Positions 3,223 to 22,096 of a stretch of DNA of 22,096 nt are shown one piece after another. Numbering within the stretch: the stretch's first letter is position 1; every line of letters begins with the position of its first letter. The notes under the pieces were generated by a model. The model saw only the letters and a program-made list of their open reading frames with translations. It was not told the origin of the DNA and ran no database searches. Source of the DNA: a virus; the IMG/VR virus record IMGVR_UViG_3300006030_000123, positions 1 through 22,096 of that record; one strand, 5' to 3'. Both the position numbers and the translations under genes were made by a program.

Positions 3223-5127
3223 TTAAGCGCCCATCAGCATAAATACTGACGGTGTTGGGTCGGTTACAATGGTTGACCAAGAAGCGGTTGTTCCGTTCGT
3301 AGTCAAATACTTTCCTGTGTTTCCAGTCTGACTTGGTAGAGCATCTACTGTTGCCCACTTGACTCCATCTGCCTGTGTGCTATCTGCCTGGAGGTATTGC
3401 CCGTTGGTTCCAACTGTCTGAGCAGCATAGGTTCCAGTTCCAGTACCTACAAGTATAACACCCTTGGCTGTATATTCTGCCTTAGGTACTGCAGCGTTGG
3501 CTGTAGTCTGGGCAGATGATGCAGCAGTGTTGGCTGTATTAGCCAAGTCGTATGCTGACTTAACTGAGTTAGGCGTAGCAGCAGTTGTGATAGATGTGCT
3601 AGCAGTAGAGTCGGTGAGTTGTACTGCACCTGACTGTGCTGTTGTTGCTGCTTGAATAGCAATGTTGACGCTGCCAGCAGTACCTCCACCTGTGATAGGT
3701 GCTGAGACTGTAACTGCCGTGATGTCACCTGTGTCGTTGGCAATCCACTCAAGTCCTGTAGCAGTTGCTGAGTTAACACTTAAGACATAGCCATTAGTTG
3801 TGGCTGCCGCTAGTCGGGCTGCTGTATCTGCAGCGCTAGCAACAATCAAGTCACCTTTAGCGTCAAGGATAGTTGCTTGAATTGCTCCTGCTAATACTGC
3901 AGCAGCAGATGCTGCCGAAGCAGCAGCACTGGTAGCAGAAGTTGCTGCGCTAGCAGCAGAGGTAGCAGCAGCAGTTGCACTGGCTGCAGCAGATGTTGCA
4001 CTTGTCGCAGCAGCACTGGCTGATGTAGCCGAAGCGCTTGCTGAAGTAGCAGAAGATGTAGCAGATGTGCTGGCTGAGTTAGCGCTAGTTAAAGCAGATG
4101 AGGCAGATGTTGCTGCTGAGGTAGCCGATGTAGCAGCAGCGGCAGCAGAGTTAGAAGCCGTAGTAGCAGAGGCAGCAGCGCTTGTGGCACTGGTTGCTGC
4201 TGCAGTCGCAGAAGCCGCTGCAGAGGTTGCAGAGGTGGCTGCTGCTGTGGCTGAGGTAGACGCACTGTTGGCGCTAGTTAAGGCGCTAGAGGCGCTTGTA
4301 GAGGCGCTAGAGGCACTCGTAGCGGCAGAGGCAGCACTGGTAGCAGCCGATGCTGCTGAGGTTGCTGCAGCCGTTGCTGAGCCTAGAATGCTATCTACAT
4401 AATCTTTAGGGGTAGCAGAGGATGCAATCATCCCTGCGCTAGATAGACCAGTGATGACTGGACTGCCCGAAATAGTAGGGCTGGTCAGAGTCTTATTAGT
4501 TAGGGTCTGAGTTGCATCTACGATAACTACGGTGCCCGTTGTGTTAGGCAAAGTAATCGTATTATCTTGAGTTGGGTCTACAACTGTCAGAGTAGTTTCG
4601 TATGCGTCTGCAGTTGTACCTTCAAATACCAATACGGCACCTGCTGAGGCGGTGCCTGTAATTGTTGGGTCAGAGATAGTTGGAGAGGTAAGGGTTTTGT
4701 TGGTAAGAGTTTGTGTCTTAAGTGTACCTACGACAACGCCTTCACCTGAACCGATACCGTGCATTGTATGACCAGAGCCAGCACCGTCATTATAATAAGC
4801 GTCTGCCTCTGCGTGGAGGTTTGCGTCACGAAGGTCTCGACCAATTGCCATATGTCGAACAACAGCACCCGCTGAGTGAGACTGAGCAGTTGAGCCATCA
4901 ATGGCTCGTGTTACGGTAAAAGTATTAGTAGATACCGCAGTGGCATCTACAATTTCTTCAAGCGCCGTATCTGGGTCAATAACAAGAGTAAATGTTCTGC
5001 CTGATGGAATCGTTACACCACCAAGGAGAGTTGTTCCAGAGACAACTGTAAATGACGTAGCGCCAGCGGTAATGGCACCTGTCAGCGTTGACTGCTGAGA
5101 GCGAGAGGAGTATTGGCGAGTTGTCAT
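3223..5127 (-). CDS. Tail fibre protein with a long heptad-repeat shaft (634 aa)
   Basis: A tail fibre that projects from the virion toward the host surface. Residues 1-100 hold a beta module (TSFTVVSGTTLLGGVTIPSG to STAQSHSAGAVVRHMA) that may attach it to the tail. Two TQTLTNKTLTSPTIS repeats (138-152 and 206-220), typical of phage fibres, flank a beta stretch. Residues 251-410 are an unbroken seven-residue Ala/Ser/Thr repeat expected to form a three-stranded coiled coil. After that come beta segments, GDLIVASAADTAARLAAATT and a C-terminal tip with TGNTGKYLTTNGTTASWSTI that could hold receptor contacts. AGGA lies six bases before the ATG at 5127. The C-terminal end, SVFMLMGA, is short, so a separate adhesin from the neighbouring genes may complete the tip. 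Confidence 0.85.
   Translation of the reverse strand: MTTRQYSSRSQQSTLTGAITAGATSFTVVSGTTLLGGVTIPSGRTFTLVIDPDTALEEIVDATAVSTNTFTVTRAIDGSTAQSHSAGAVVRHMAIGRDLRDANLHAEADAYYNDGAGSGHTMHGIGSGEGVVVGTLKTQTLTNKTLTSPTISDPTITGTASAGAVLVFEGTTADAYETTLTVVDPTQDNTITLPNTTGTVVIVDATQTLTNKTLTSPTISGSPVITGLSSAGMIASSATPKDYVDSILGSATAAATSAASAATSAASAATSASSASTSASSALTSANSASTSATAAATSATSAAASATAAATSATSAAASATTASNSAAAAATSATSAATSASSALTSANSASTSATSSATSASASATSASAAATSATSAAASATAAATSAASAATSATSAAASAASAAAVLAGAIQATILDAKGDLIVASAADTAARLAAATTNGYVLSVNSATATGLEWIANDTGDITAVTVSAPITGGGTAGSVNIAIQAATTAQSGAVQLTDSTASTSITTAATPNSVKSAYDLANTANTAASSAQTTANAAVPKAEYTAKGVILVGTGTGTYAAQTVGTNGQYLQADSTQADGVKWATVDALPSQTGNTGKYLTTNGTTASWSTIVTDPTPSVFMLMGA
3898..4377 (-). 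repeat. Coding repeat: 22 heptads (21-base units) in the tail fibre
   Basis: Codons 251-404 of the fibre form 22 perfect-phase 7-residue units of the type AxxAATS, plus a final partial unit to codon 410. Longer blocks recur: a 14-residue pair at 293-306 and 307-320, and a near-identical block at 279-292 and 342-355. The register never slips, so the shaft probably grew by duplication of 21- and 42-base units. The region is read through on the plus strand as a long open frame only because of its base pattern. Confidence 0.85.
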
Positions 5128-8269: not shown

Positions 8270-9472
8270 CTAGAGAGCAGCGATTGAGGAACCTGAAGTA
8301 ATGCGATACAACGCTTCGTCACGGTAGACTGCGAAGCCGAGTACGCCGTACCAGCCCATAGGGCGGAAGCGCATCAACTTGTCAGTGACGTTACCGATAA
8401 CGACGTGTGGTTCTTCAGCGACGGCTTCTGCCATTGCTTGAGCACCGCAAACGATTGTATTGAATACACGGGTTACTGGAGTTACAGTTACAGTTGTGGT
8501 TGCAGTAACTGCACCAGTGTTTGCTGTATCTACAGTGAAGGTTGTGGTTGAGCCAGAGGTGCTGATTGCAGTAATCTTTGCACCAGAAGCGATACCAGTT
8601 CCAGCAATCTTGTCGCCAACTTCAGCACGAGTTGCGATAACAGCAGAAGAAGCAACACCGAAGGTGAAGCCTGCTGATGTACCTGCAACAGTTACAGCGG
8701 TTGTAGCGAGTGCGGTCTGGTCTGCACCTGACTTAGCATTGTAAAGACGTGGTGACTCTACGAAGAATGCGCCTTCGTAATCTCCGATTTCTCCAGCCCA
8801 GATGTTATCTACTGCTGGGTTTGAGTTAGCGTGAACAAAGTTCCAGCCCATATTTCCTGTTTCTGCACGAAGGTCGTGTGAAACTTGTGGGTGGATACCT
8901 GTCCAGTAAAGGCTTCCGCGACGTGCCTTTGCCTTGTTTGAACGAAGGCGAGCAACGGACTTACGGATGTCTGCTGAGTCAATTGTATCTGAAGCAGTAA
9001 TTCCAGCAACGGAAGTTGCGGTTCCTGCGAAGATGTTGTTTGAACCAGAGCGGAGAGTTGTCATTGCAACTGCATCAATTGAGTCAGCGAGGTTGTAAGC
9101 AATGATGTTTGCAATCGCTGGGTCAACGTCTGCGAGTGAGAACAACTCGAGAGCGCGGGTTACGAGAACTGCGTTACCGTACTCAGAAAGAGTAATGGTG
9201 ACGGAGGTTGGTGTTGAGAGTGCAACTGCATCTGGGTCTGTTGTTTCAGTGAGAGCAGTTGTTGCTTGTGCAAGGTCAACGTACTTCTGTAGAACTACTG
9301 TTGAGCCTGGGAATGCTTGACGGGCAGGACGCTTATCTGCAACCGAACGGATTAGGGGTTCGGAACGGAGAGCGAACTCGAGAAGACGGTCATACGCCTT
9401 CTGTACGAGACCTGCGCCACCAACGGAACCGCCGAGCGAGGTGCTCGACGTATCTGTATATGCGTTAGGCAT
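8270..9472 (-). CDS. Major capsid protein, N4-gp56-like
   Basis: A 400-residue major head protein. The N-terminal two thirds match the N4-gp56 type of HK97-fold capsids: LLEFALRSEPLIRSVADKRP, a GSTVVLQKY strand with ALTETTDPD, then VTITLSEYGNAVLVTRALEL and a helix with YNLADSIDAVAMTTLRSGSN, and later YWTGIHPQVSHDLRA. The C-terminal strand block resumes at about 335 (RVFNTIVCGAQAMAEAVAEE, RPMGWYGVLGFAVYRDEALY). Between about 248 and 334 lies a Thr/Ala/Ser-rich beta insert with VGDKIAGTGIASGAKITAIS, resembling surface beta modules of other phage proteins. ATG at 9472 follows AAGGAG by about 9 bases, a strong site. It follows the scaffold gene and precedes a hairpin, as expected for the most abundant virion protein. 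Confidence 0.88.
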   Translation of the reverse strand: MPNAYTDTSSTSLGGSVGGAGLVQKAYDRLLEFALRSEPLIRSVADKRPARQAFPGSTVVLQKYVDLAQATTALTETTDPDAVALSTPTSVTITLSEYGNAVLVTRALELFSLADVDPAIANIIAYNLADSIDAVAMTTLRSGSNNIFAGTATSVAGITASDTIDSADIRKSVARLRSNKAKARRGSLYWTGIHPQVSHDLRAETGNMGWNFVHANSNPAVDNIWAGEIGDYEGAFFVESPRLYNAKSGADQTALATTAVTVAGTSAGFTFGVASSAVIATRAEVGDKIAGTGIASGAKITAISTSGSTTTFTVDTANTGAVTATTTVTVTPVTRVFNTIVCGAQAMAEAVAEEPHVVIGNVTDKLMRFRPMGWYGVLGFAVYRDEALYRITSGSSIAAL

Positions 9473-9501: not shown

Positions 9502-9972
9502 TTATTCTTGTGAACGGAGAAGACCCAGAATTTCTTCTGCTGAACTTGCGTTGTTTAGACGCATTTCAAAGTCTTCTGCCCTGTCGGGAGTAACCGCTCC
9601 CTGAGTAAGAACATCTTGATTGCGAAGTGCAGCAAGATTCTTCTTGTCTACTTCGGGGGCATCTGCTGTCTTAATACCGAATAAGTCTGCGTTATCTTCG
9701 AGCCAGGAATTTACTGTCTCTTCGTTAACGTCATCTAAGTCTTTCATAATAAGACGTGCAGCCTTTGCGTTTACGCCCTTCTTTTCTAGGACTTGACGGA
9801 CGGTGTTTTCTTTCTTCTCTTTGAGGAATCCCTCTAGTTGTTCAGAAAGTTCCTTGATACGTTTCTCGTCGGACCTTTTGGCTTTACGTAGTTTCTTAAC
9901 TAGGTCATTGCCATCTAGTACTTCGTTTGTGTCTATATCGTCGTCTTCGTCTTCCCAGTAGTTGTTGCTCAT
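9502..9972 (-). CDS. Capsid scaffolding protein (candidate)
   Basis: A 156-residue, highly charged protein. Residues 5-20 are almost all acidic (WEDEDDDIDTNEV), followed by a Lys/Glu-rich coiled coil at about 23-62 (KLRKAKRSDEKRIKELSEQL and onward) and a helical C-terminus ending SAEEILGLLRSQE. Short acidic coiled-coil proteins encoded directly before the major capsid gene are typically scaffolding proteins that guide procapsid assembly and then leave or are digested. The ATG at 9972 is preceded by GGGTGG about 10 bases upstream, a modest ribosome site, and by the foldable 125-base leader. If the HslV-like peptidase is a maturation protease, this protein is its most obvious substrate; that link is inference. 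Confidence 0.8.
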   Translation of the reverse strand: MSNNYWEDEDDDIDTNEVLDGNDLVKKLRKAKRSDEKRIKELSEQLEGFLKEKKENTVRQVLEKKGVNAKAARLIMKDLDDVNEETVNSWLEDNADLFGIKTADAPEVDKKNLAALRNQDVLTQGAVTPDRAEDFEMRLNNASSAEEILGLLRSQE

Positions 9973-11738: not shown

Positions 11739-12860
11739 TTATACTCCAAATCCCATAGCGCTTGCTAAACCAGTAGCAAGGTCTCGTGCACCACTAATTG
11801 CCCAACTTGATTTTTCTGCATTTGGATGGAACTTAAGATACGTCTCAAAGTCAGCAAGGCTTCCCATAGCAACTTTGCCCGCTGTTCCATCTGGACGCAG
11901 GAACTTATCTAGGTCTGGATTAGATAGGTCAATTGTTGTTGGGTCTACTTCCCAATACTTAACCATTCTTCCAATATAAGGTTCAGCCAAATCCATTACT
12001 GTAAGGTTAGGGTTAGCCTTAAGACGGTCAGCAAAAAGTGGGTAAAGTTCTGCAGCCTTTGCATTGAATTGCTTCTTGAGGTCATCAAGAGTTGTCTCGC
12101 CTTTTGACAGTTGGAGAGCATAGTTAGCAATTTCTTTTTGACCTAGATAGTCAAGACCATTCATTTTAAGAACTGAGCGAAGAGCATCAATCTTGTTAAT
12201 AACCGTAGATGGGATAGTCTTTGGGTCTCCAATATTGACCTTAGCCCACAGGTAATTCTGGGCAAAAGCATTAGCATCAAAGCCACCAGGAGTGGTGATG
12301 ATTTCTTTAGTTCCGTCTGGACGGATAACTTCTTTGGTTTCTTTGCCAGAAGCCTTGGCTGCTTCAGTTAACTTGCCAAAAAAGTCAGTAAGGTCTTGTT
12401 CGCCAAACTGAGCAAATGAACCCTCAGCAAAACCTAATTGCTTGGCTGCATTACGAAGAATGGCATCAGATGTAATCTTGTCATAGTTCGTATAGTTGAT
12501 GGTTACGCCAGTTTGGGTTGGAGCATTGTCCAACTGAATCTGAAGTACATCCCAAGGGGTCTGCTTCTTGCCTTCTTTATACGAGGCTACGGCTGCATCA
12601 ATAAGGCTATTGAATAAAGTTTTACGGGCAGCATCGGTAGGCATACGATTCTGGGAGATAAGATATTGAGCAAGCGCTGCTTGTGCTGACTCTGATAGTT
12701 TAGCAAAAGTTTTCTTGACTATAGCAGAATCTTTTTTAACTAGATTACCATCTTTATCTGGCATCCAGATATAGTTAATTACCTTCTTACTACCCTTGTC
12801 TGGAAAATTAAAACCACTTGTAGAGGGAGGTGTTAATACCGTTTTTCTGTACCTACTCAT
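11739..12860 (-). CDS. Virion-associated protein of unknown function (373 aa)
   Basis: A 373-residue, largely helical protein, probably part of the same structural set as the giant protein before it. A basic N-terminus (MSRYRKTVLTPPSTSGFNFP) is followed by helical segments such as LSESAQAALAQYLISQNRMP, a short beta hairpin (KEVIRPDGTKEIITTPGG), and a C-terminal region with PYIGRMVKYWEVDPTTIDLS and GSLADFETYLKFHPNAEKSS. The C-terminal pattern (helix, 'DPxTIDLxxP', then a 'DFExxL+xxP' segment) is one I associate with conserved structural proteins of uncultured phages; I cannot name a function. The gene overlaps the giant gene by 8 bases and has a strong GGAGG six bases before the ATG, so it can be translated on its own. 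Ejection or internal core protein is a reasonable guess. Confidence 0.68.
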   Translation of the reverse strand: MSRYRKTVLTPPSTSGFNFPDKGSKKVINYIWMPDKDGNLVKKDSAIVKKTFAKLSESAQAALAQYLISQNRMPTDAARKTLFNSLIDAAVASYKEGKKQTPWDVLQIQLDNAPTQTGVTINYTNYDKITSDAILRNAAKQLGFAEGSFAQFGEQDLTDFFGKLTEAAKASGKETKEVIRPDGTKEIITTPGGFDANAFAQNYLWAKVNIGDPKTIPSTVINKIDALRSVLKMNGLDYLGQKEIANYALQLSKGETTLDDLKKQFNAKAAELYPLFADRLKANPNLTVMDLAEPYIGRMVKYWEVDPTTIDLSNPDLDKFLRPDGTAGKVAMGSLADFETYLKFHPNAEKSSWAISGARDLATGLASAMGFGV

Positions 12861-15800
12861 TTCCTACCTCCGTAAGTTGGTCATTTAAGAAATATCTGTC
12901 TAGAATATCTGCAAGTCTTGGGTCAACAACGTCTATCACTGATTCAACATATTGTTTCCAAGCGTTTTGAACTTTGCCTTTATAGCCGCTTGGAGCGTCT
13001 TTGTACAATTTAACGAAGTCATCACGATATTTCATCATTGCTTCAGTATGAGTCCAGAACTGGCTATTGCCGTGCTTTTCCATAAACTTCTCATCTTTGA
13101 CAATCTGCGTCAATCCCCAGGCATATGTATATGCTGTGTTCTTGCGAGCATTTTCTTTATATACATAACCCCAGTCAGGGCTGAATGCAGATAGGTCTTC
13201 TACATATTTGCGTAGAGCATCTTGGAGAACATCAACTGATGCATAACTGGCATAGCCTTTTGCTTTAGCCATATCATTGAGTTGCTTCTTGTATGCTGTA
13301 TAAGCCTTCCATACACGACCAACTTCAATATCTTTTTCTACATCCGCTATTGACTTAAGTGGCAAATTTAGCGTTGTTCCGTCAGGAAGAACTGTCCCTG
13401 GTTGATTTAAGATTCTGCTGATATTAGGGTCTGACTCTGAGCCCACAAGGTCAGCAGTAATAAGACCAATAAGGTTCTTATTCTTCTTTCCAAGTCTGTT
13501 AGCAAGACCAGAGAACTCTTCCCAAACTCGGGTATAACCCTCAACAGTTGGGACAATGTATGCCGATTTCTGTCTACGTCGTGCTCCGAATGATAAGCGC
13601 TCCATTGGGAATGGTTGTGTCGCCCCAAGGACTGCTGCTCGTTCATTAAGTTCAGTTTCTGCTGCAGCCTTAGCATCACGCTCGCTCATACCCTGAGCAA
13701 TATATTTATCTGTTGCTGCAGTAAAGTATGTGCGGAAGATACTATCTGGACGCATATCAACAACTGCTGGAGTTCCAAGTGGTGAAGCAAACTGCCAGAG
13801 AGCCTTCTCTAAGAACTTCTTTTTAGCATTCTTTGCTACGAGTTCTTCTGTTGGTTTCTTACCAATACCCATTTCATAAAGAGCCATCTGGTAGTTCCAC
13901 TCAGATGTAAACGAATCAACCCATTCTTTCTTTGATTCATCGCCCTTTACCCATACTAAGAAGTTTCTTAAGTATGCTGGTGTGAACGCTTGAGTCGCAG
14001 CGCGACCTAAATCTGATTCGATACCATATGGGAAAAGTTCTTCATATGAGTAACCAGGAAGTTTTCCGAATGTAGTATCAATAGCATTCTTGATTACCTT
14101 GTCATTACCTGGAGCAAGTTTGAGAACTTGACCCAAAGCAATTGGTACCGCATATGATGGACCAGCAAAGTTAGCAAGGAAGTTAATGGCTCGAGTACCG
14201 ACCATAATTCCTTGTCCATCTTTAAGACCAAGTTCTTTGGTTCCTGGGACAATTAAGTATTCGGCATCTAGTGGGTTTTCTACTGGATTGCCGTACTTGT
14301 CAACTCCGAAAGAGTTATAGATTCCATAGTATGAGTTCAAGAATCCAGCCATACGCTGTGGTGCTTTAGCAGCAAAACGGCTATAGCGATAGATACCGCT
14401 AGCAGATGCAGCAGGGAACGATAGAACAGTTCTTGCCATATACAAAGCACGGTTCTGGCGACGGATTGAGTAGAATGTCTTCTCAGCCTCTTTAACCATT
14501 TCAATCGCTGCAGCCTGACGAACAGAGTTTACAGTTGAAGTGGTAATCTCATATCCCTGAGATGCCAGCATTTCAAGTTTCTGAACTGTACGATTCTTAA
14601 GTTCTACGCTACCCCAAGCCCAACGAATGGCATTTTCAGGAGCACCTAACTTTGTCCAAGCCCAACCAGTTGCTCTATCAAAAGCCTCAATAAGGCTCTT
14701 TGATTGTTCAATTGCTGTTCCATACTTGTTATCCAAAGGATTGATTGGAGTAAGTCTTTCGAGTTTATCTCCAAGAAGTTGTGCTAATTGATTGCCACGA
14801 ACTTCGCCGCTTGCAGCAGCAGCCTTGGCTTCTAGTGTAGGTAGGTAGCGATTGACATATGCAATCTGGTCATCAATCATATCAATGATGTCAGAGGCAT
14901 CACGACCAAATTCTTCGGCGTATGTCTTGCCACCGCGCTTAAGACCCCAGTTTTGAATAATCTCATTACGTGTACGACCAGCAAGAATCTGGTCAACAAG
15001 AATATCGCCACGCATATAGTTATTTACTGTGTATGCCAACTCATCAAAATAAAGTGGGTCATAGACTGGAGTAATACGATTAGGTGTTCTGCGACCAAGC
15101 ATTTGAGTACGGGTAGCAAAAGCCTTATCTCCAAGGATTTCCATTTCGCGTGTATGACGGTTGGAAATTTCAGCCTTATATGAAGTGCCTAAGTGATTCT
15201 CGCTTTCAAGGCGAGGGATGTTTACGGTCTGTCCATTACTTAAGACATAACCTTTTTCATCCTGACGACCCTTGAGGCGAATGCGGGCATTATCTGCAAC
15301 TGACCACTCATCTGCTATAGCCTTACGAGTAGGACCCATATCAACAAGAATCTTGTCAATATCGTCATAAGCCTTCTTGATTGAAGCGTTCAGTTTATTC
15401 AAATCAGGAGCAAGAGTATTAATATCTCCTGCAGCGCGAGTAATAGCAAGTTCGGCTGCGCTAATCTCGGAAGCCAACTTAGGGTCATTTAGTGACTTAA
15501 GATATGCAGTTCTGCGAACTAATCCATAAAGCGTAGGGACTTCTTCGCGGACGGTATTAAATTCATCTGCTCTGTCACGAGCCTTCTTCTCTAGATTAGC
15601 AAGAAGACGCTCTGCTGCCCGTAGGTTATCCTTAACAATTTCTATGTTATCTGCTTTTGTTACAGGAGAACGACCCATTGGATTAACAAAGAAGTCTACC
15701 CATTCAGCAACAGCATAGTCAGCAATATCAACAGCCTGCTCAATTTGAGCGGTATACATTGAATACTCTTCTTTGAGAGCCTTCTTACGGGCATTGCTTC

Positions 15801-18084
15801 TAATATTAGCCTTATTGACCGCAGCAAAGAATCTATTCTTGTTGTTTACAATTGCATTCTTTGCAAAAGACTGCGTGCTATCAACTAAGAACTTAGAACC
15901 TTGAGACATAACTGCTGCGTTAAGTGGTTCAAAAATTGAGTTCTTTGGAATATATGCTGGGCGCACCAACTGTGAAAACGAGAATATTCTGTTTCCAGAT
16001 TCAAAAGCAAATCTTCCAGCGTCGGTAAATACGTTGCCCTTTGGATTAAAGTTACCCTTAACTCTAGCAACCTCACGGACAATCTTGCCCATTGGAATAA
16101 GAGGGGTTGCATTCGCTAGTTGACGCTGTGTCTGTGGGCTAACAACTAGTCGGTATCCGCTTGGGTCAATAGCAAAGGAGTCACGAGATAGGTCGCCGTG
16201 ATACTTGTTAATGCTTTCCATCATCTCATCTACAAATTGCTTAGCCTGAACTCGGCTTAAGCCCATTGTGTTGAGGACGTCCATAGCAACTTCATTATTC
16301 ATTTCTTTGAAAAATGCTGCTCTAGCACCATCTGTCTTTTGCATTAAGGCTTTTTCAATAATGTTGCGACGGTAATCTGCTGCTGAAATTGTACTGCCGT
16401 CGGAAAGTTTAATGGTTTTGGTGCCACGACGGAATAATGGAATATCATCTAGCCAAGCATTAATTTCTTCAATGGCATCTGATGGACGTAGACCTGAGTG
16501 GCTAACAATATTTCTTGGAAGTTTGCTTCCAGTAAAATGCATTAGAGCAGTTGCTGCTCCTCCACGCTTTCCGCTGCCAATAAGAATCTGAGCAACTCCA
16601 CCGACATCGCTATAGTCACGAACTTCTGTTGCTGCTGCCAACTTCTGCTTTGTCTCACGAAGTTTAATTACAGCGCCTCTACCGATAACTGGTTCAACTG
16701 GTTTGTACGCTGTGCCAAGAACACGAGGCTCTATAAGGAAGCGACCAGTTTGAGCGTCAAAGCGGTCTTGCATAAAAGCATCAAAGATGCTTCGAGATTC
16801 TGGATTCTTTGCAATCGCATCATCGAATGCCTTGCTCCAGCGTTCACGAGCCTGTTGGTTGTAAGAACGATAGGCTCCAGTTGTGGCGTAATCTGCTGCA
16901 ACTTCTGCTCCAGCATTGGATAGATACCATAAATCATCTGTCTTTTGAGCAGTTATTAGACGTTCAATTGCTGGACCATAACCCTTATCTGCAAGTATCA
17001 AGTCACGAACAAAGTTCGGGTCATTAGTTTCTTTGATTAATGTTGCGATTCTAGGGTTATTTGTGTGTGGCTTAAGAATCTTGTTGATTAAAACAATGTC
17101 TTGGGTATTGGCAAGATTAACAATATCTGTTCCAAATGTAGTCTGGCTGGTACCTGATATTTGGTCATCTGCTAGTTTCTCAAGTTTAGCAATAGCGTTG
17201 ACATCATATACGTTTAGTTTGTTGCTAAAGCCAGCCGCTCTGGCTGCTGTCTTAAGTGCTGAAACTGCCCCTGATGTAGCGCCAACAATTGCAACGTTTC
17301 CAATAATGGCATCAGTGAATCCAGTTAACCAGCGACCTGTTGTGTTTTCAGCAAAATTCTTTTGAATATCTTCATCGTCCCATAGGTTAACTCGGTCAAT
17401 ATCAATTCCGCCATCTTCAAGAATTGCATCCGATATTCCACTGACGTGAAATGGGTTGAGATAAGATTTAGTTAGGGCAACGCCTAGCGATACATCTTTG
17501 CTTCGATTATAGGCGGTCTGAATGTCGTCAAGTTGGATACCTTTACCATAAGCATCGTCCCTAAATAAAGGGCTTTCTGGGTCAGTTAGTAGAGCAACTG
17601 TAGAGATTGGACGCTTAACTACTGGACTAAATACTTTTTCCTCAAGAGCAACAGCAGCCTGGAGCATTGGGTCAAATGGAATTGCTGCTTCCGCTGCAGT
17701 CTGTGCAGCATATTGCCCCATACCATCTTTAAGTAAATCGTTTAGATTAGTGCTTGTGCCCTGAGTTATCTGTTGACCAACTTTAGTTGCGCCAATTCGT
17801 GCACCAGCCTGAAGCGCAGTACCTGCTTGGGTTGCACCTGGTTGTATGCCTAATGCTTGAAATGGAGCAAGAGCACCTTTACCTAGAAACCCAGCAGCCT
17901 TTGCAATTGGCTTAGTTACTGGCTCTGCTACTTTAGCAACATCTTTTGCGACACCTAAAACTCGTTTAGTATTTTCTTCTAGATTTCTTTTACCAATATT
18001 CCAGGGTGAAAGGGTGTCAACGATTTTCTGCATAGAGTCTTTATCGCCGCCAAGAGCCTTCTTAAAGTTATCCCAAAATGCCAT
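12853..18084 (-). CDS. Giant virion protein, candidate internal/ejection protein (1743 aa)
   Basis: A 1743-residue protein, nearly a quarter of the window. The N-terminus (about 1-150) is Ala/Gly/Lys-rich with helical repeats of the type VAKDVAKVAEPVTKPIAKAA, then a hydrophobic run at about 262-286 (GNVAIVGATSGAVSALKTAA). A long mostly helical middle follows, then a region with AFDRATGWAWTKLGAPENA, RYSRFAAKAPQRMAGFLNSY and a hydrophobic AINFLANFAGPSYAVPIAL, then a charged helical C-terminus. No lysozyme, transglycosylase, HExxH or polymerase motif is visible. Its size, helical character, isolated hydrophobic segments and position between portal and scaffold/capsid genes suit an internal virion protein that leaves the head with the DNA and helps it cross the envelope, as in short-tailed phages. 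That role is inference. The ATG at 18084 abuts the upstream stop and has GGAG nearby. Confidence 0.7.
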   Translation of the reverse strand: MAFWDNFKKALGGDKDSMQKIVDTLSPWNIGKRNLEENTKRVLGVAKDVAKVAEPVTKPIAKAAGFLGKGALAPFQALGIQPGATQAGTALQAGARIGATKVGQQITQGTSTNLNDLLKDGMGQYAAQTAAEAAIPFDPMLQAAVALEEKVFSPVVKRPISTVALLTDPESPLFRDDAYGKGIQLDDIQTAYNRSKDVSLGVALTKSYLNPFHVSGISDAILEDGGIDIDRVNLWDDEDIQKNFAENTTGRWLTGFTDAIIGNVAIVGATSGAVSALKTAARAAGFSNKLNVYDVNAIAKLEKLADDQISGTSQTTFGTDIVNLANTQDIVLINKILKPHTNNPRIATLIKETNDPNFVRDLILADKGYGPAIERLITAQKTDDLWYLSNAGAEVAADYATTGAYRSYNQQARERWSKAFDDAIAKNPESRSIFDAFMQDRFDAQTGRFLIEPRVLGTAYKPVEPVIGRGAVIKLRETKQKLAAATEVRDYSDVGGVAQILIGSGKRGGAATALMHFTGSKLPRNIVSHSGLRPSDAIEEINAWLDDIPLFRRGTKTIKLSDGSTISAADYRRNIIEKALMQKTDGARAAFFKEMNNEVAMDVLNTMGLSRVQAKQFVDEMMESINKYHGDLSRDSFAIDPSGYRLVVSPQTQRQLANATPLIPMGKIVREVARVKGNFNPKGNVFTDAGRFAFESGNRIFSFSQLVRPAYIPKNSIFEPLNAAVMSQGSKFLVDSTQSFAKNAIVNNKNRFFAAVNKANIRSNARKKALKEEYSMYTAQIEQAVDIADYAVAEWVDFFVNPMGRSPVTKADNIEIVKDNLRAAERLLANLEKKARDRADEFNTVREEVPTLYGLVRRTAYLKSLNDPKLASEISAAELAITRAAGDINTLAPDLNKLNASIKKAYDDIDKILVDMGPTRKAIADEWSVADNARIRLKGRQDEKGYVLSNGQTVNIPRLESENHLGTSYKAEISNRHTREMEILGDKAFATRTQMLGRRTPNRITPVYDPLYFDELAYTVNNYMRGDILVDQILAGRTRNEIIQNWGLKRGGKTYAEEFGRDASDIIDMIDDQIAYVNRYLPTLEAKAAAASGEVRGNQLAQLLGDKLERLTPINPLDNKYGTAIEQSKSLIEAFDRATGWAWTKLGAPENAIRWAWGSVELKNRTVQKLEMLASQGYEITTSTVNSVRQAAAIEMVKEAEKTFYSIRRQNRALYMARTVLSFPAASASGIYRYSRFAAKAPQRMAGFLNSYYGIYNSFGVDKYGNPVENPLDAEYLIVPGTKELGLKDGQGIMVGTRAINFLANFAGPSYAVPIALGQVLKLAPGNDKVIKNAIDTTFGKLPGYSYEELFPYGIESDLGRAATQAFTPAYLRNFLVWVKGDESKKEWVDSFTSEWNYQMALYEMGIGKKPTEELVAKNAKKKFLEKALWQFASPLGTPAVVDMRPDSIFRTYFTAATDKYIAQGMSERDAKAAAETELNERAAVLGATQPFPMERLSFGARRRQKSAYIVPTVEGYTRVWEEFSGLANRLGKKNKNLIGLITADLVGSESDPNISRILNQPGTVLPDGTTLNLPLKSIADVEKDIEVGRVWKAYTAYKKQLNDMAKAKGYASYASVDVLQDALRKYVEDLSAFSPDWGYVYKENARKNTAYTYAWGLTQIVKDEKFMEKHGNSQFWTHTEAMMKYRDDFVKLYKDAPSGYKGKVQNAWKQYVESVIDVVDPRLADILDRYFLNDQLTEVGNE

Positions 18085-18291
18085 TTAGAACTCCAAGTAA
18101 TCTGGGTTAAAGTTAGAAGGTTCTCCGCCTTTAACGTCTTGACCAGTGATTTCTCTAATAAAATTATCTCTATCTGTTGGGGTTTCCCAGGGAACCATCG
18201 AGAGCATAAAAGCAATGCCGAAGTTTTCGTAACCTAAAGAGTTACCGAACTTATCTAGATGGTCGAAGAATGTATTTTCTACCCATCTCAT
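18085..18291 (-). CDS. Small protein of unknown function
   Basis: A 68-residue protein with an aromatic-rich N-terminus (MRWVENTFFDHLDKFG), a central hydrophobic stretch (FGIAFMLSMVPWETP) and a polar C-terminus. The hydrophobic stretch is too short and interrupted to call a membrane span. The start ATG shares one base with the upstream stop (TAATG), and its own TAA abuts the ATG of the 1743-residue gene, so it sits in a tightly coupled run leading into that giant gene. I do not recognise the family. It could be a chaperone or assembly partner for the giant protein, but position is the only support. Confidence 0.7.
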   Translation of the reverse strand: MRWVENTFFDHLDKFGNSLGYENFGIAFMLSMVPWETPTDRDNFIREITGQDVKGGEPSNFNPDYLEF

Positions 18292-18797
18292 TACATTATC
18301 TCTCGCATAAGAGAGTTAATCATTCTCTTATATGAATCAGGAGCACCTGGAATACGGGCTGCATTGAGTAAGTCTGGTAGGTAACGCTTGATTAAATCTA
18401 CATTTTCAATTTGACGATTGTTTGGGTTAAGACTTTTAGGTATTACTTCGCTACCGCGACCTGAGTAACCATCAATACCGTCGGTAATGGGTCGGAATTC
18501 CTGTGGTTCAGAATCAAGTGGGTCAATAGCGCCAAGAATTTGAGCAATACCCTCGCCAGATGGCAACTTAGATGCTGGGTTTGCTGCATTTGCTGTTGTA
18601 GCCACATTACCACCTTCTGAAATTTGTTGAGATATAGCAGTATTCATTCCTTGAGTAAAGCCAGATGGACGAAGTTGTGCAGCCTTTGCTGCCTTTTCTG
18701 CTACAAACTTTCCTGATTGACCATTGCCACCAGTACCAGAAACAGAGAATGGATTGTTTTGCTCCGCCTCGGGGCGAAATCCTCCGCTAACCATCAT
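18291..18797 (-). CDS. Unknown Gly/Asn/Pro-rich protein in head gene block
   Basis: A 168-residue protein I cannot assign. The N-terminal half is low-complexity, rich in Gly, Ser, Asn and Ala and probably disordered (for example GFRPEAEQNNPFSVSGTGG); the end is a likely helical segment from about residue 130, QIENVDLIKRYLPDLLNAAR followed by a basic SYKRMINSLMREIM. A disordered arm plus a helical C-terminus would suit a head-assembly accessory, but that is only a guess from position. The gene overlaps its upstream neighbour by four bases (ATGA). Two adjacent ATG codons are possible; AGGAG is five bases before the second (18794) and two before the first (18797), so the second may be the one used. 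Confidence 0.72.
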   Translation of the reverse strand: MMVSGGFRPEAEQNNPFSVSGTGGNGQSGKFVAEKAAKAAQLRPSGFTQGMNTAISQQISEGGNVATTANAANPASKLPSGEGIAQILGAIDPLDSEPQEFRPITDGIDGYSGRGSEVIPKSLNPNNRQIENVDLIKRYLPDLLNAARIPGAPDSYKRMINSLMREIM

Positions 18798-19021
18798 TTC
18801 TCCTCTGGTGTGTATGAATATTCTTCAGCGCTCAATAGCATTCCTTTGGCTAACCAAGGATTCATATTGTCGCTAACGTCTGTCATTAAGTATCGAGTGC
18901 CTTCATAATCTGACCACTCGCTTACAAGAACCCATCCTGTACAGATTTGGCTCTCTGAATCTTCTAACTCTTCGGCAAGGATACGCATTGCCTTGTCTAT
19001 AGCCTCGTTAAACTTGCTCAC
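18794..19021 (-). CDS. Small acidic protein of unknown function (GTG start)
   Basis: A 75-residue acidic protein. An N-terminal helix (KFNEAIDKAMRILAEELEDS) is followed by a compact mixed segment with CTGWVLVSEWSDYEG and NPWLAKGMLLSAEEYSYTPEEK. I do not recognise a function; short proteins with a 'CTGWVLV.EW' core occur beside portal genes in other phages, as far as I recall. The start codon is GTG at 19021, forming a GTGA four-base overlap with the stop of the upstream peptidase gene. The Shine-Dalgarno match upstream is weak, so translation is probably coupled to the peptidase. That coupling hints at matched expression of the two proteins, but nothing shows that they interact. Confidence 0.75.
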   Translation of the reverse strand: MSKFNEAIDKAMRILAEELEDSESQICTGWVLVSEWSDYEGTRYLMTDVSDNMNPWLAKGMLLSAEEYSYTPEEK

Positions 19022-19554
19022 TTATATTGAATCTCTTCATAAAAGGGAGGCGCTGAATAAGCGCTAACCTTAGATGCAATCTCCATAGCCTGCATTGGTT
19101 CTGCTCCTGCGTAAAGAGCGCCTAATGCGAATGGACCACCGCTACCAATAGCGTATACGTTGTCTTCATTCTTCATTACCGATAGGTCTTCATCAACATC
19201 AAAGATTTCTCCACCGACTGAGATAAGGAACTGAAAGCGCATACCGTCTTTCTTATCCTCATCAAAGTTATAGCCATTATCTGTAAGGCATTTGCGAAGT
19301 GATGGCATAACCTTGGTAATCATAAAGCGATAGACGTCTTTCTTATCTTTCGCTGTAAACTGTGGCGGGTTCCAGATGTTCTGTGCTATATCGCACGGAG
19401 CAACTTCTCCAGCACCAGCAATAAGCAAAGCGCCTCGTTTAGCAATCTTTCTCATTACCTTATGAGCGTATACTCGACCTGAATCGTCAATAACACGACT
19501 ATCAGCAACTAGCACGCTCTTGTCGCCATATTCAATTCCGATAATCGTTGTCAT
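19018..19554 (-). CDS. HslV/proteasome-beta-like Ntn-hydrolase peptidase, candidate capsid maturation protease
   Basis: A 178-residue threonine peptidase of the proteasome/HslV fold. It begins MTTIIGIEYGDKSVLVADSR, so Met removal exposes Thr as the N-terminal nucleophile. Precursor numbering gives Thr2, Asp18 (ADSR), Lys32 (HKVMRKI, aligning with the catalytic Lys of HslV after a two-residue gap), the LLIAGAGE strand-turn (44-50), and YAIGSGGPFALGALYAG with Ser138. The C-terminal end FYEEIQYK resembles HslV. The length matches HslV. Start: ATG at 19554 with AGGAGG six bases upstream. It lies between portal and virion genes, the position of prohead proteases, and no S78-, U35- or ClpP-like protease is seen elsewhere here. 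Fold and active residues are seen; a role in capsid maturation is inference. It could instead act on host proteins or borrow a host unfoldase; no HslU-like ATPase is present in the window. Confidence 0.88.
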   Translation of the reverse strand: MTTIIGIEYGDKSVLVADSRVIDDSGRVYAHKVMRKIAKRGALLIAGAGEVAPCDIAQNIWNPPQFTAKDKKDVYRFMITKVMPSLRKCLTDNGYNFDEDKKDGMRFQFLISVGGEIFDVDEDLSVMKNEDNVYAIGSGGPFALGALYAGAEPMQAMEIASKVSAYSAPPFYEEIQYK

Positions 19555-19568
19555 TGTCCCCTCCTAAA

Positions 19569-21356
19569 TTATCGTCGTCGAATAGTTCTTACGCTTGCGT
19601 TTGCTTCGCCTGCTCCTGAAATACTTGATAGAAGACTTAAAATGTCTGGTGCACCTGCTGCTGGTGGTAGTTCTGGTGCTGCACCTGCTGGAAGAGCGCC
19701 TTCTACTGGAGCGCCTATGGGAGCAGGGGACGGTTGCTCAACCATTTCAGGGGCAACCCCAGCAGAAGGAACTTGTTCTGCAGCAGGGAATGCTTCTTCA
19801 ATCGCATCCTCTAGGGCAACACCTTTCTGGCGAGCCTTGATAACTGCAGCAATCTTACGCACAATATCAGATGCGTCTCCACCCTGTGTAGCCATTGCTG
19901 GAATTGCTTGTGTGTAAGCAGTCAATGAACCAAGCAACGCTTGGCGCATATTTTCAACTTCAATCTTTTCGAGTTCTTGTGTGACGTTAACTGTGAATGG
20001 AAGTTCACGCATAGCCAAATCTTTAGAGATAAGACCGCCACCGAGAGCCTGAAGCATAAAGATTAGACCTTGTGCTGGATTAAGACCAGCGAGCATTCCG
20101 TAACGGACATCTGCAGAGTAATCACCCTTGATGTCTTTGACTGGGCTGTAGGTGATTTCATAAGGTGAACCAGCATCTACACCGCGAATTGTCTTTGTCT
20201 CTGGGAAAATCTTTTCGTCTACTTCAAAGCAAATCTGAATTACATCGCGTAGTGCGCTAGCAAAGATTGCTTGAGCGCTCTTGACTTGGGTATCAAATGC
20301 ACCCATAAGAGCCTGTACGCCTTGACCAGTAACAATTGAGGCGTCAATGTTTCCTGTACGTCCTTCAGGATAACGTGCACCTACACGCATTTCTTGATTG
20401 AGCAATGTCTGCTCTGTGAATGCGCCTTGAGGAAGATTAAGTTCTACACGACGAACGCCCGCTGGTGAGTTGGTGCGGATAATCGCATCTCCACCAAGCA
20501 TAAGTTCTTGTACGTCTGTAGGCAGAACGATAGGAGCCTGAACAGATTTCTCTGCTGCTTCCATCGCAAGGAGAGCGAAGCGGTTGCGTAGCAACTGAAT
20601 ACCAATGATGTCATCGAATTGACCACGCATATCGCCATCAACAGATGGCTTCTTTGCGACAACAATCATCATCTTTCCAAGTGGATTCTTAGCAGTTGAA
20701 AGAACTAAGTTGCCCTTTGTTGGAAGATAAACAACCGATTGGTCTTTATCATAGTAGCGAATCATCTCAACCTGTTGAGTCAAATCTTGCTTGTAGCGTA
20801 ACTTGCCAAGCAGTTCGAACTCAAATTCAGGGAACAAGGAGACAAGTTCGCCTAGTGTCATTGTGTATCGTTTCGCAAAAGCAACGCACCGTCCGTAGCG
20901 GTCAAAATCAGGGTAAGCACCTATTGGGTTCTCTAGGCGTATGCGTGGCAGTTTTGCTTCTTCGTCGAGTTCTACTACGAACGGGACGAAACCATATGTG
21001 ATGTACCAGTCTGCGCCTTGATACATCTGTACAGATAAATCTGAGTGAGCAAAATAATTAGAGGCAATGCGAGTACGTGTATCAGCAAACTTACGAGCCC
21101 TATCAGAAACCGAATTCGCCGCGTTACAGTTAACCGCTGGTAGTGGAGCCATAACCTCTGAGAGGTCTCGCGCAACAATATCCACAAAATTTGCAACGAC
21201 ATTGGCATCTACCCCATCTGGAAAGAAGTCAGGGTATACAGAAGCAATCTGACCTTTGCGTACAGCAAGGACGTCAAGGTTGCGCTGGTCCCTGTCTACA
21301 GAGCGGTAGCGTAAAGACTCTACACGCGCTGCAATCTGCTCGATTGATAGTGCCAT
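19569..21356 (-). CDS. Portal protein
   Basis: Predicted portal (595 residues), the dodecameric ring at the head vertex through which DNA is packaged and ejected. The call rests on its place directly after terminase, its length, and an overall character typical of portals: a helical N-terminus, an alpha/beta core with segments such as YGFVPFVVELDEE and RLENPIGAYPDFDRYG, a helical region around GIQLLRNRFALLAMEAAEKS, and a disordered Ala/Pro-rich tail over about the last 75 residues ending in RTIRRR. I chose the ATG at 21356 because AGGA sits 7 bases upstream and the gene then follows terminase without overlap. An in-frame ATG at 21404 would overlap the terminase end and has no better ribosome site. 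Portals share little sequence, so a profile comparison would be needed to name the subfamily. Confidence 0.82.
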   Translation of the reverse strand: MALSIEQIAARVESLRYRSVDRDQRNLDVLAVRKGQIASVYPDFFPDGVDANVVANFVDIVARDLSEVMAPLPAVNCNAANSVSDRARKFADTRTRIASNYFAHSDLSVQMYQGADWYITYGFVPFVVELDEEAKLPRIRLENPIGAYPDFDRYGRCVAFAKRYTMTLGELVSLFPEFEFELLGKLRYKQDLTQQVEMIRYYDKDQSVVYLPTKGNLVLSTAKNPLGKMMIVVAKKPSVDGDMRGQFDDIIGIQLLRNRFALLAMEAAEKSVQAPIVLPTDVQELMLGGDAIIRTNSPAGVRRVELNLPQGAFTEQTLLNQEMRVGARYPEGRTGNIDASIVTGQGVQALMGAFDTQVKSAQAIFASALRDVIQICFEVDEKIFPETKTIRGVDAGSPYEITYSPVKDIKGDYSADVRYGMLAGLNPAQGLIFMLQALGGGLISKDLAMRELPFTVNVTQELEKIEVENMRQALLGSLTAYTQAIPAMATQGGDASDIVRKIAAVIKARQKGVALEDAIEEAFPAAEQVPSAGVAPEMVEQPSPAPIGAPVEGALPAGAAPELPPAAGAPDILSLLSSISGAGEANASVRTIRRR

Positions 21357-21363
21357 TAGTATC

Positions 21364-22096
21364 CTAACCGTATATTTCTTGCCATTGTTCTGCAACGGCT
21401 TCATCTAAATTAATTGTTGTACGTCGTTGAGTTTGTGCTCTAGTTGCCCAGCGATTTTGAACCCAGCGTTGTTGTTGAGTTCCTGATTGCATCATCTCGC
21501 GGATACGGATAACAGCGAACCATAAAGCCATCACGCAGTCGGTTGCGTTTCTTGTGTCAGGCTTCCAGGTAATCAATTGCTGAACTAGCGCCTTAAGACC
21601 TTCAGAGCCTTCATTGCTAGGTAGTTCTATTAAATTGTTATCTTGGAATCTTCCATCTCTAAGAGAGCCGAAAAGGCTTGCCATAGAAGCCACACCAAAG
21701 TTAGTATCCCACTTATTCCTACCAGTAAAGTGAGAGTTGAGTTGGCAGCCGTACATTGACAGCCAGTTTCGCAGTTCGTCGTCAAGGGCGTAGGCTTTCT
21801 GGTGAGCGTTAATTTCAATACGTAGTTCTTGTGGTTTATATCGTTGTACCCAGTCCTCAATCAAGTATCTGATTTTCATAGGAGTTGGGTCAACCATATT
21901 AACGCAATCAAGAATATAAATCATTGAGTCAACCTTGTTATAGGTTGCTATAACTGCTGCTGTGTTGCCCGTCATTGCTGGGTCAAGCCCTATAACGGTA
22001 TACCCCTCGAGGTGTTGTGGATGACCTGGAGCACCTGGTTTAAGCGGTCCGCGCTTTCGCATACCGTTGACACATCCTGCAACTGCTGCTGGCGCA
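21364..22096 (-). CDS. Terminase large subunit, C-terminal nuclease part (partial at 5' end)
   Basis: This is the nuclease half of the DNA-packaging motor, which cuts the concatemeric genome while the missing N-terminal ATPase half pumps it through the portal. The frame stays open past the ATG at 22062 to the window edge, so that Met is internal and the gene is truncated by the window. Counting from it, an RNase H-like core is visible: VIGLDPAMTGNTA with Asp27 as a likely first metal ligand, RIEINAHQKAY with Glu83 as the second, and a late ATDCVMALWFA helix supplying the third acidic residue. The linker before it (CVNGMRKRGPLKPG) fits the ATPase-nuclease junction. The next gene downstream is the portal, 7 bases away, the usual phage order. 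The ATPase Walker motifs lie outside the window, so the subfamily cannot be judged. Confidence 0.9.
   Translation of the reverse strand, partial: APAAVAGCVNGMRKRGPLKPGAPGHPQHLEGYTVIGLDPAMTGNTAAVIATYNKVDSMIYILDCVNMVDPTPMKIRYLIEDWVQRYKPQELRIEINAHQKAYALDDELRNWLSMYGCQLNSHFTGRNKWDTNFGVASMASLFGSLRDGRFQDNNLIELPSNEGSEGLKALVQQLITWKPDTRNATDCVMALWFAVIRIREMMQSGTQQQRWVQNRWATRAQTQRRTTINLDEAVAEQWQEIYG

Follow-up and report, generated by a model that had tools for sequence, protein, structure and literature searches.

Does a proteasome-fold peptidase encoded next to the portal gene mature the head of a tailed phage, or does it serve another function? The question is raised by a 22-kb virus record (IMG/VR record IMGVR_UViG_3300006030_000123), which we analysed over its whole length of 22,096 nucleotides (hereafter the window); near-full-length relatives are about 38-41 kb long. 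A first-pass annotation, made from the letters alone, had placed a proteasome/HslV-like Ntn-hydrolase at positions 19018-19554, in what it took to be the slot of the prohead protease. This ORF exists and encodes 178 aa on the minus strand, on which the annotation was silent. Its ribosome-binding site (AGGAGG, 19560-19565, minus strand), rated strong, lies 5 nt 5' of the ATG at 19554, the gap between the end of the portal gene and the start of the peptidase gene is 14 nt, and the peptidase stop codon shares a GTGA overlap with the GTG start of a 75-aa gene. Among the 130 window ORFs of at least 40 aa, taken in all six frames, it was the sole match to a profile built from distant homologs only (1.7e-54), which sets it far above chance. 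The gene is real, lies on the minus strand inside an operon between portal and virion genes, as had been proposed and as the profile annotation of the window genes bore out, and is under purifying selection, with dN/dS of 0.02-0.18 against relatives wherever dS is finite. The peptidase dS is often saturated in pairs whose portal dS stays below 1, a pattern suggestive of recombinational exchange.

In the order of transcription, the window encodes a terminase large subunit that the window end truncates to its C-terminal part, identified by profile matches (21364-22062), the portal (19569-21404; 611 aa as called, about 595 aa in relatives; PHROG 104, 5.3e-28), the peptidase, the 75-aa protein (18794-19021), a 168-aa virion-block protein (18291-18797) homologous to gp7 of the Beephvirinae, a 68-aa protein and a 1743-aa virion-block protein (12853-18084; PHROG 10618) in the position of Treat gp9 (1648 aa). 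The downstream block comprises genes for proteins of 373 and 546 aa, a scaffold-like protein of 156 aa (9502-9972; PHROG 7813, unnamed, with a weak match to the Pfam scaffold family DUF4355/Gp46), directly before the gene for a 400-aa major capsid protein of the N4-gp56 type (8270-9472; TIGR04387, 98 bits against a cut-off of 60; PHROG 1357), and then further genes, including tail-fibre-like ones. All the genes given here with coordinates lie on the minus strand. The nearest cultured relatives are the Beephvirinae (Treat, FlowerPower, Zeigle and Abafar), podophages of Streptomyces with which the virus shares the portal (about 45% over the matched part), the capsid protein, gp7 and other virion genes, in the window order.

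Several features of the neighboring genes deserve mention in their own right. The 75-aa protein has homologs in many relatives and a weak match to one unnamed PHROG. The 400-aa capsid forms carry an insertion of about 80 residues, which may be a surface domain; comparison of the window gene (8270-9472) with L148:13917-14870 and L145:8538-9494 showed that it is absent from the 317- and 318-aa forms of relatives G001 and G012, as it is from the 320-aa form of the Beephvirinae, and it does not track with the peptidase gene. A 634-aa protein (3223-5127) contains a long Ala/Ser/Thr-rich repeat region, and these repeats give rise, on the other strand, to long shadow ORFs (3464-3655 and 4067-4402).

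The earlier claim of a full-length Ntn-hydrolase agrees with both profile matches and predicted structure. The protein passes the curated cut-off of the Pfam Proteasome family (PF00227; 25.4 bits against 22.4) and matches PHROG 1040, "peptidase HslV family," over residues 1-171 (7.3e-28), whereas it scores far below the cut-offs of the equivalog models for HslV (TIGR03692; 23.5 bits against 157.75) and for the archaeal 20S beta subunit (TIGR03634; 27.2 bits against 224). By curated cut-offs, it is neither HslV proper nor a 20S beta subunit. Sequence matches in the PDB were headed by BPH, followed by HslV and 20S beta subunits. A single-chain AlphaFold2 model, for which an alignment of 45 homologs from the lineage served as input, reached a mean pLDDT of 93.2 and displays the four-layer alpha-beta-beta-alpha Ntn fold, with helices at residues 51-60 and 74-92. 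Its best structural match was again BPH (Z 18.6), with 20S beta and HslV chains at Z of about 17-18, and its viral matches include proteins named HslV peptidase subunit or proteasome subunit beta. In the superposition, residue 2 of the model coincides with the first residue of the BPH chain and of HslV from E. coli.

The active-site residues assigned earlier were largely recovered when 76 distinct homologs were aligned: Thr2 occurs in each of the 74 that are ungapped at this position, Asp18 in 76 of 76 and Ser138 in 75 of 76. The exception is the lysine, assigned to Lys32, a residue kept in just 38 of the 76 homologs, whereas Lys36 is found in every one of them. Lys36 directly precedes the Ile of the KI motif and is presumably the equivalent of the catalytic Lys33 of the proteasome, a lead that we draw from an alignment with HslV of E. 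coli and the beta subunit of Thermoplasma. Sequence, profiles and predicted fold, together with the conservation of the nucleophile, Asp and Lys, point to a threonine peptidase that has the proteasome/HslV fold and whose active site looks intact.

Proteasome homologs of phages have been reported before. Fuchs, Alva and Lupas described the phage-linked homologs PPH and AAH in 2021, with no informative gene context, no AAA+ partner and no Actinobacteria-specific phage carrying AAH (PMC8665760). Given this description and the match to PHROG 1040, the window peptidase belongs to a known kind. The window peptidase matches the PHROG 1040 profile over its full length and is like the family in fold and active-site residues, but named members (for example gp175 of phAPEC8 and gp49 of Jerseyvirus FSL SP-101) are encoded in metabolic or lysis blocks, whereas the window gene directly follows the portal gene. 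PPH and AAH are group I proteins of tailed phages that lack a propeptide and for which no AAA+ partner was found, and the window peptidase likewise falls into group I. We considered and rejected an assignment to PPH itself, because a length of 178 residues and the presence of helix H2, at residues 74-92, contradict the published definition of PPH as a protein of about 140 aa without this helix (PMC8665760). The best PDB match in both sequence and structure is the bacterial BPH (5ovs, 5ovt and 5ovu), at about 25% identity, and in both proteins the loop after H2 is extended; this loop is long and acidic in BPH, whereas HslV has a short linker (PMC5777263). In representatives of the viral homologs, the pore-loop stretch after H2 comprises 13-18 residues, 3-6 of them acidic; that of the window peptidase has 15 residues, four acidic and three basic, and with this mixed charge is less acidic than the loop of BPH. 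HslV, in turn, has the fold in common with the window peptidase but differs in its shorter pore loop.

A PPH query matched 461 phage records, and a motif-pattern search of GTDB genomes returned one locus, a 140-aa PPH adjoining terminase and lysozyme genes in Coralloluteibacterium, and no actinobacterial AAH. Short PPHs recur beside lysis genes (loci L131:1246-3855, L155:18947-20429 and L156:5001-6554): they follow terminase and lysozyme genes in Coralloluteibacterium and endolysin and o-spanin genes in phage L13.2, and lie 5' of the holins and endolysin in a Jerseyvirus.

To examine the gene in its own lineage, we searched IMG/VR with the portal, which yielded at least 599 stretches, at least 592 of them encoding portal relatives, and kept the best 80. 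Among these best 80 of at least 592, an HslV-like gene directly follows the portal gene in nearly every locus that reaches past the portal, and of the relatives, more than 70 of them distinct, almost all have the peptidase beside the portal. The exceptions are three contigs of a single side branch, L093, L095 and L097, in which a homolog of the 75-aa gene comes directly after the portal gene; a profile search of these three fragmentary records found no copy of the peptidase elsewhere. The peptidase splits into several classes, with identity to the window protein falling to about 35-39% where the portals are 78-86% identical. A portal tree in which several forks are weak requires at least 10 class changes, where eight states would call for no fewer than 7; classes B, C2 and D each turn up at separate places. 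This is consistent with a slot, in a presumably late operon, in which the peptidase has been exchanged for distant homologs and lost once.

Three further interpretations of this variation were considered and discarded. An arms race cannot be read from the speed of divergence of the peptidase, which is unspecific, the late genes for the 168-aa and 1743-aa proteins diverging as fast. Strict linkage of the peptidase to its 75-aa neighbor is contradicted by G001, which retains the 75-aa gene without the peptidase. The 1743-aa protein as the specific substrate was rejected because close peptidases (86-90%) accompany versions of it at both 40-46% and more than 70% identity. Elsewhere in the lineage, relatives G012 and G014 encode an Amidoligase_2 protein adjoining a class-II glutamine amidotransferase-like (Ntn-type) protein (L144:11560-13682 and L146:2369-4461), a possible peptide- or protein-modification pair without homologs in the 7 other relatives compared.

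Outside this lineage, homologs of the peptidase occupy other parts of phage genomes. They are found in the early block of the Microbacterium phage LeeroyJenkins, which has a separate capsid maturation protease, outside the head block of the Psychrobacter phage D'Alembert, which has a separate head maturation protease, amid metabolic genes in phAPEC8, in the lysis block of the Xanthomonas phage L13.2 and of a Jerseyvirus, and at the accessory end of the genome of the Arthrobacter phage Hum25. A Salmonella jumbo phage is reported to carry two HslV genes and three prohead protease genes, with no HslU (PMC7823757). As for the host of the window virus, relatives in the lineage carry WhiB and mycobacteriophage L5 gp49-like genes, and its cultured kin infect Streptomyces, so that the host is probably actinobacterial, probably a freshwater actinobacterium; GTDB genomes contained no relatives of the portal.

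These observations could also be explained by a protease for host takeover or counter-defence, one that breaks down a particular host protein and may be fed by a host AAA+ unfoldase, with alleles that track changing hosts. Such an enzyme would fit the deep class switching at a fixed place, a loss of the gene that leaves the head genes unchanged, the homologs in the early, metabolic and lysis blocks of diverse phages and the actinobacterial host markers. However, the operon is presumably a late one, which is late for takeover, and the equally fast divergence of the adjoining late genes takes away from the significance of the switching. We consider this role unlikely, if still credible.

Head maturation fares worse. 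It was the role first proposed for this gene, with a proteasome-fold ring that would act in the procapsid, digesting the scaffold or trimming capsid proteins or proteins inside the virion, and it has in its favor the fixed place directly after the portal in nearly all relatives. As the first-pass annotation had stated, no other protease is recognisable in the head block of the window by Pfam, PHROG or NCBIfam matches, nor do the families listed for G006, a near-full-length relative, include a recognisable prohead protease. The relatives, however, argue against it. The Beephvirinae share the head genes, but no peptidase gene is present anywhere in the complete genomes of Treat, FlowerPower and Zeigle, Treat having three small ORFs in its place, and Abafar has none between the portal and capsid genes, yet makes normal-looking podoviral virions with 60-nm capsids (PMC11536984). 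Likewise, contig G001, of a side branch of the window's own lineage represented by fragments, lacks the peptidase, and yet over their entire length its capsid and scaffold-like proteins can be aligned with their counterparts in relatives that carry the gene. In the capsid protein, the conserved core begins at about residue 20, which leaves no N-terminal delta domain to be removed, and the capsid termini are alike with and without the peptidase gene; the scaffold-like protein is encoded separately and is not fused to the capsid protein. The peptidase itself matches no known prohead-protease family in Pfam, PHROG or NCBIfam, and its homologs in other phages lie outside the head block, in LeeroyJenkins and D'Alembert alongside a separate maturation protease. 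Not every tailed phage needs such an enzyme, for T7-like podoviruses are not known to have one. In phages without the peptidase gene, a host protease may stand in for it. On comparative grounds, the assignment to the prohead-protease slot is not supported, and we regard a role in head maturation as improbable.

Least probable is that the protein is no longer a protease and uses the Ntn fold for another reaction, such as ligation, or as a structural ring: some proteasome relatives, for example connectase, do perform other chemistry (PMC8665760) and BPH was inactive in standard assays (PMC5777263), but all through the homologs the nucleophile, the Asp and the Lys are retained, and connectase lacks the first helix pair, which is present in the peptidase model.

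Our preferred reading, to which we assign a probability of roughly 0.6, is that the gene encodes a predicted catalytically competent group I peptidase on the HslV/BPH side, which would serve an accessory late function and not head maturation. The accessory character is suggested by the class changes, by the absence of the gene from the Beephvirinae and G001 and by the homologs that other phages encode away from the head block; the persistent place immediately behind the portal would fit a virion or assembly role too. Host methionine aminopeptidase would remove Met1 and expose Thr2, and the subunits would assemble into a ring, single or double, with Thr2 turned towards its cavity, the extended, acid-rich loop after helix H2 lining the entrance as in BPH. 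Judging by gene position, the enzyme would be expressed late, together with the portal and virion proteins, and its targets in the infected cell, probably that of an actinobacterium, would be unfolded proteins or specific ones. The enzyme might need no ATPase of its own or borrow one from the host, in which an HslU may be present. No unfoldase or HslU is present among the 25 families, of 27, listed for G006, in which the one AAA-type match considered as a phage unfoldase proved to be a DnaB-like helicase; this and the extended loop favor an ATPase-independent, BPH-like ring or the use of a host ATPase. Two further genomes, for which 25 of 37 matching families were listed, may yet encode one. 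The less acidic pore loop of the window peptidase, compared with that of BPH, speaks against this explanation, as does the lack of activity of BPH itself in standard assays (PMC5777263). A SprT-like protein (L137:18018-18698; 2.1e-6) is the clearest other protease-like match among those listed for G006.

Our literature search on freshwater actinophages and phage proteasomes returned the 2021 survey (PMC8665760) and genome announcements only, and we found no reported function for any phage proteasome homolog. What is new here is that, throughout a large lineage of environmental podoviruses, such a gene keeps a near-constant place beside the portal, along with class changes, replacement by distant homologs, one loss and a cultured sister group without the gene. 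This lineage supplies the gene context that the survey did not find (PMC8665760), and it shows that calling such genes prohead proteases from position alone is unsafe. A tentative and, in our estimate, rather unlikely proposal is that a proteasome-like ring acts in late virion production throughout a large freshwater actinophage lineage, where it would clear virion proteins that are misfolded or left unassembled, or else an inhibitor from the host, and has been repeatedly swapped for divergent versions in its slot. If true, this would be a viral proteasome whose operon is defined and whose substrate can be tested. The lineage brings the question of the substrate of a viral proteasome within reach in a laboratory actinobacterium.
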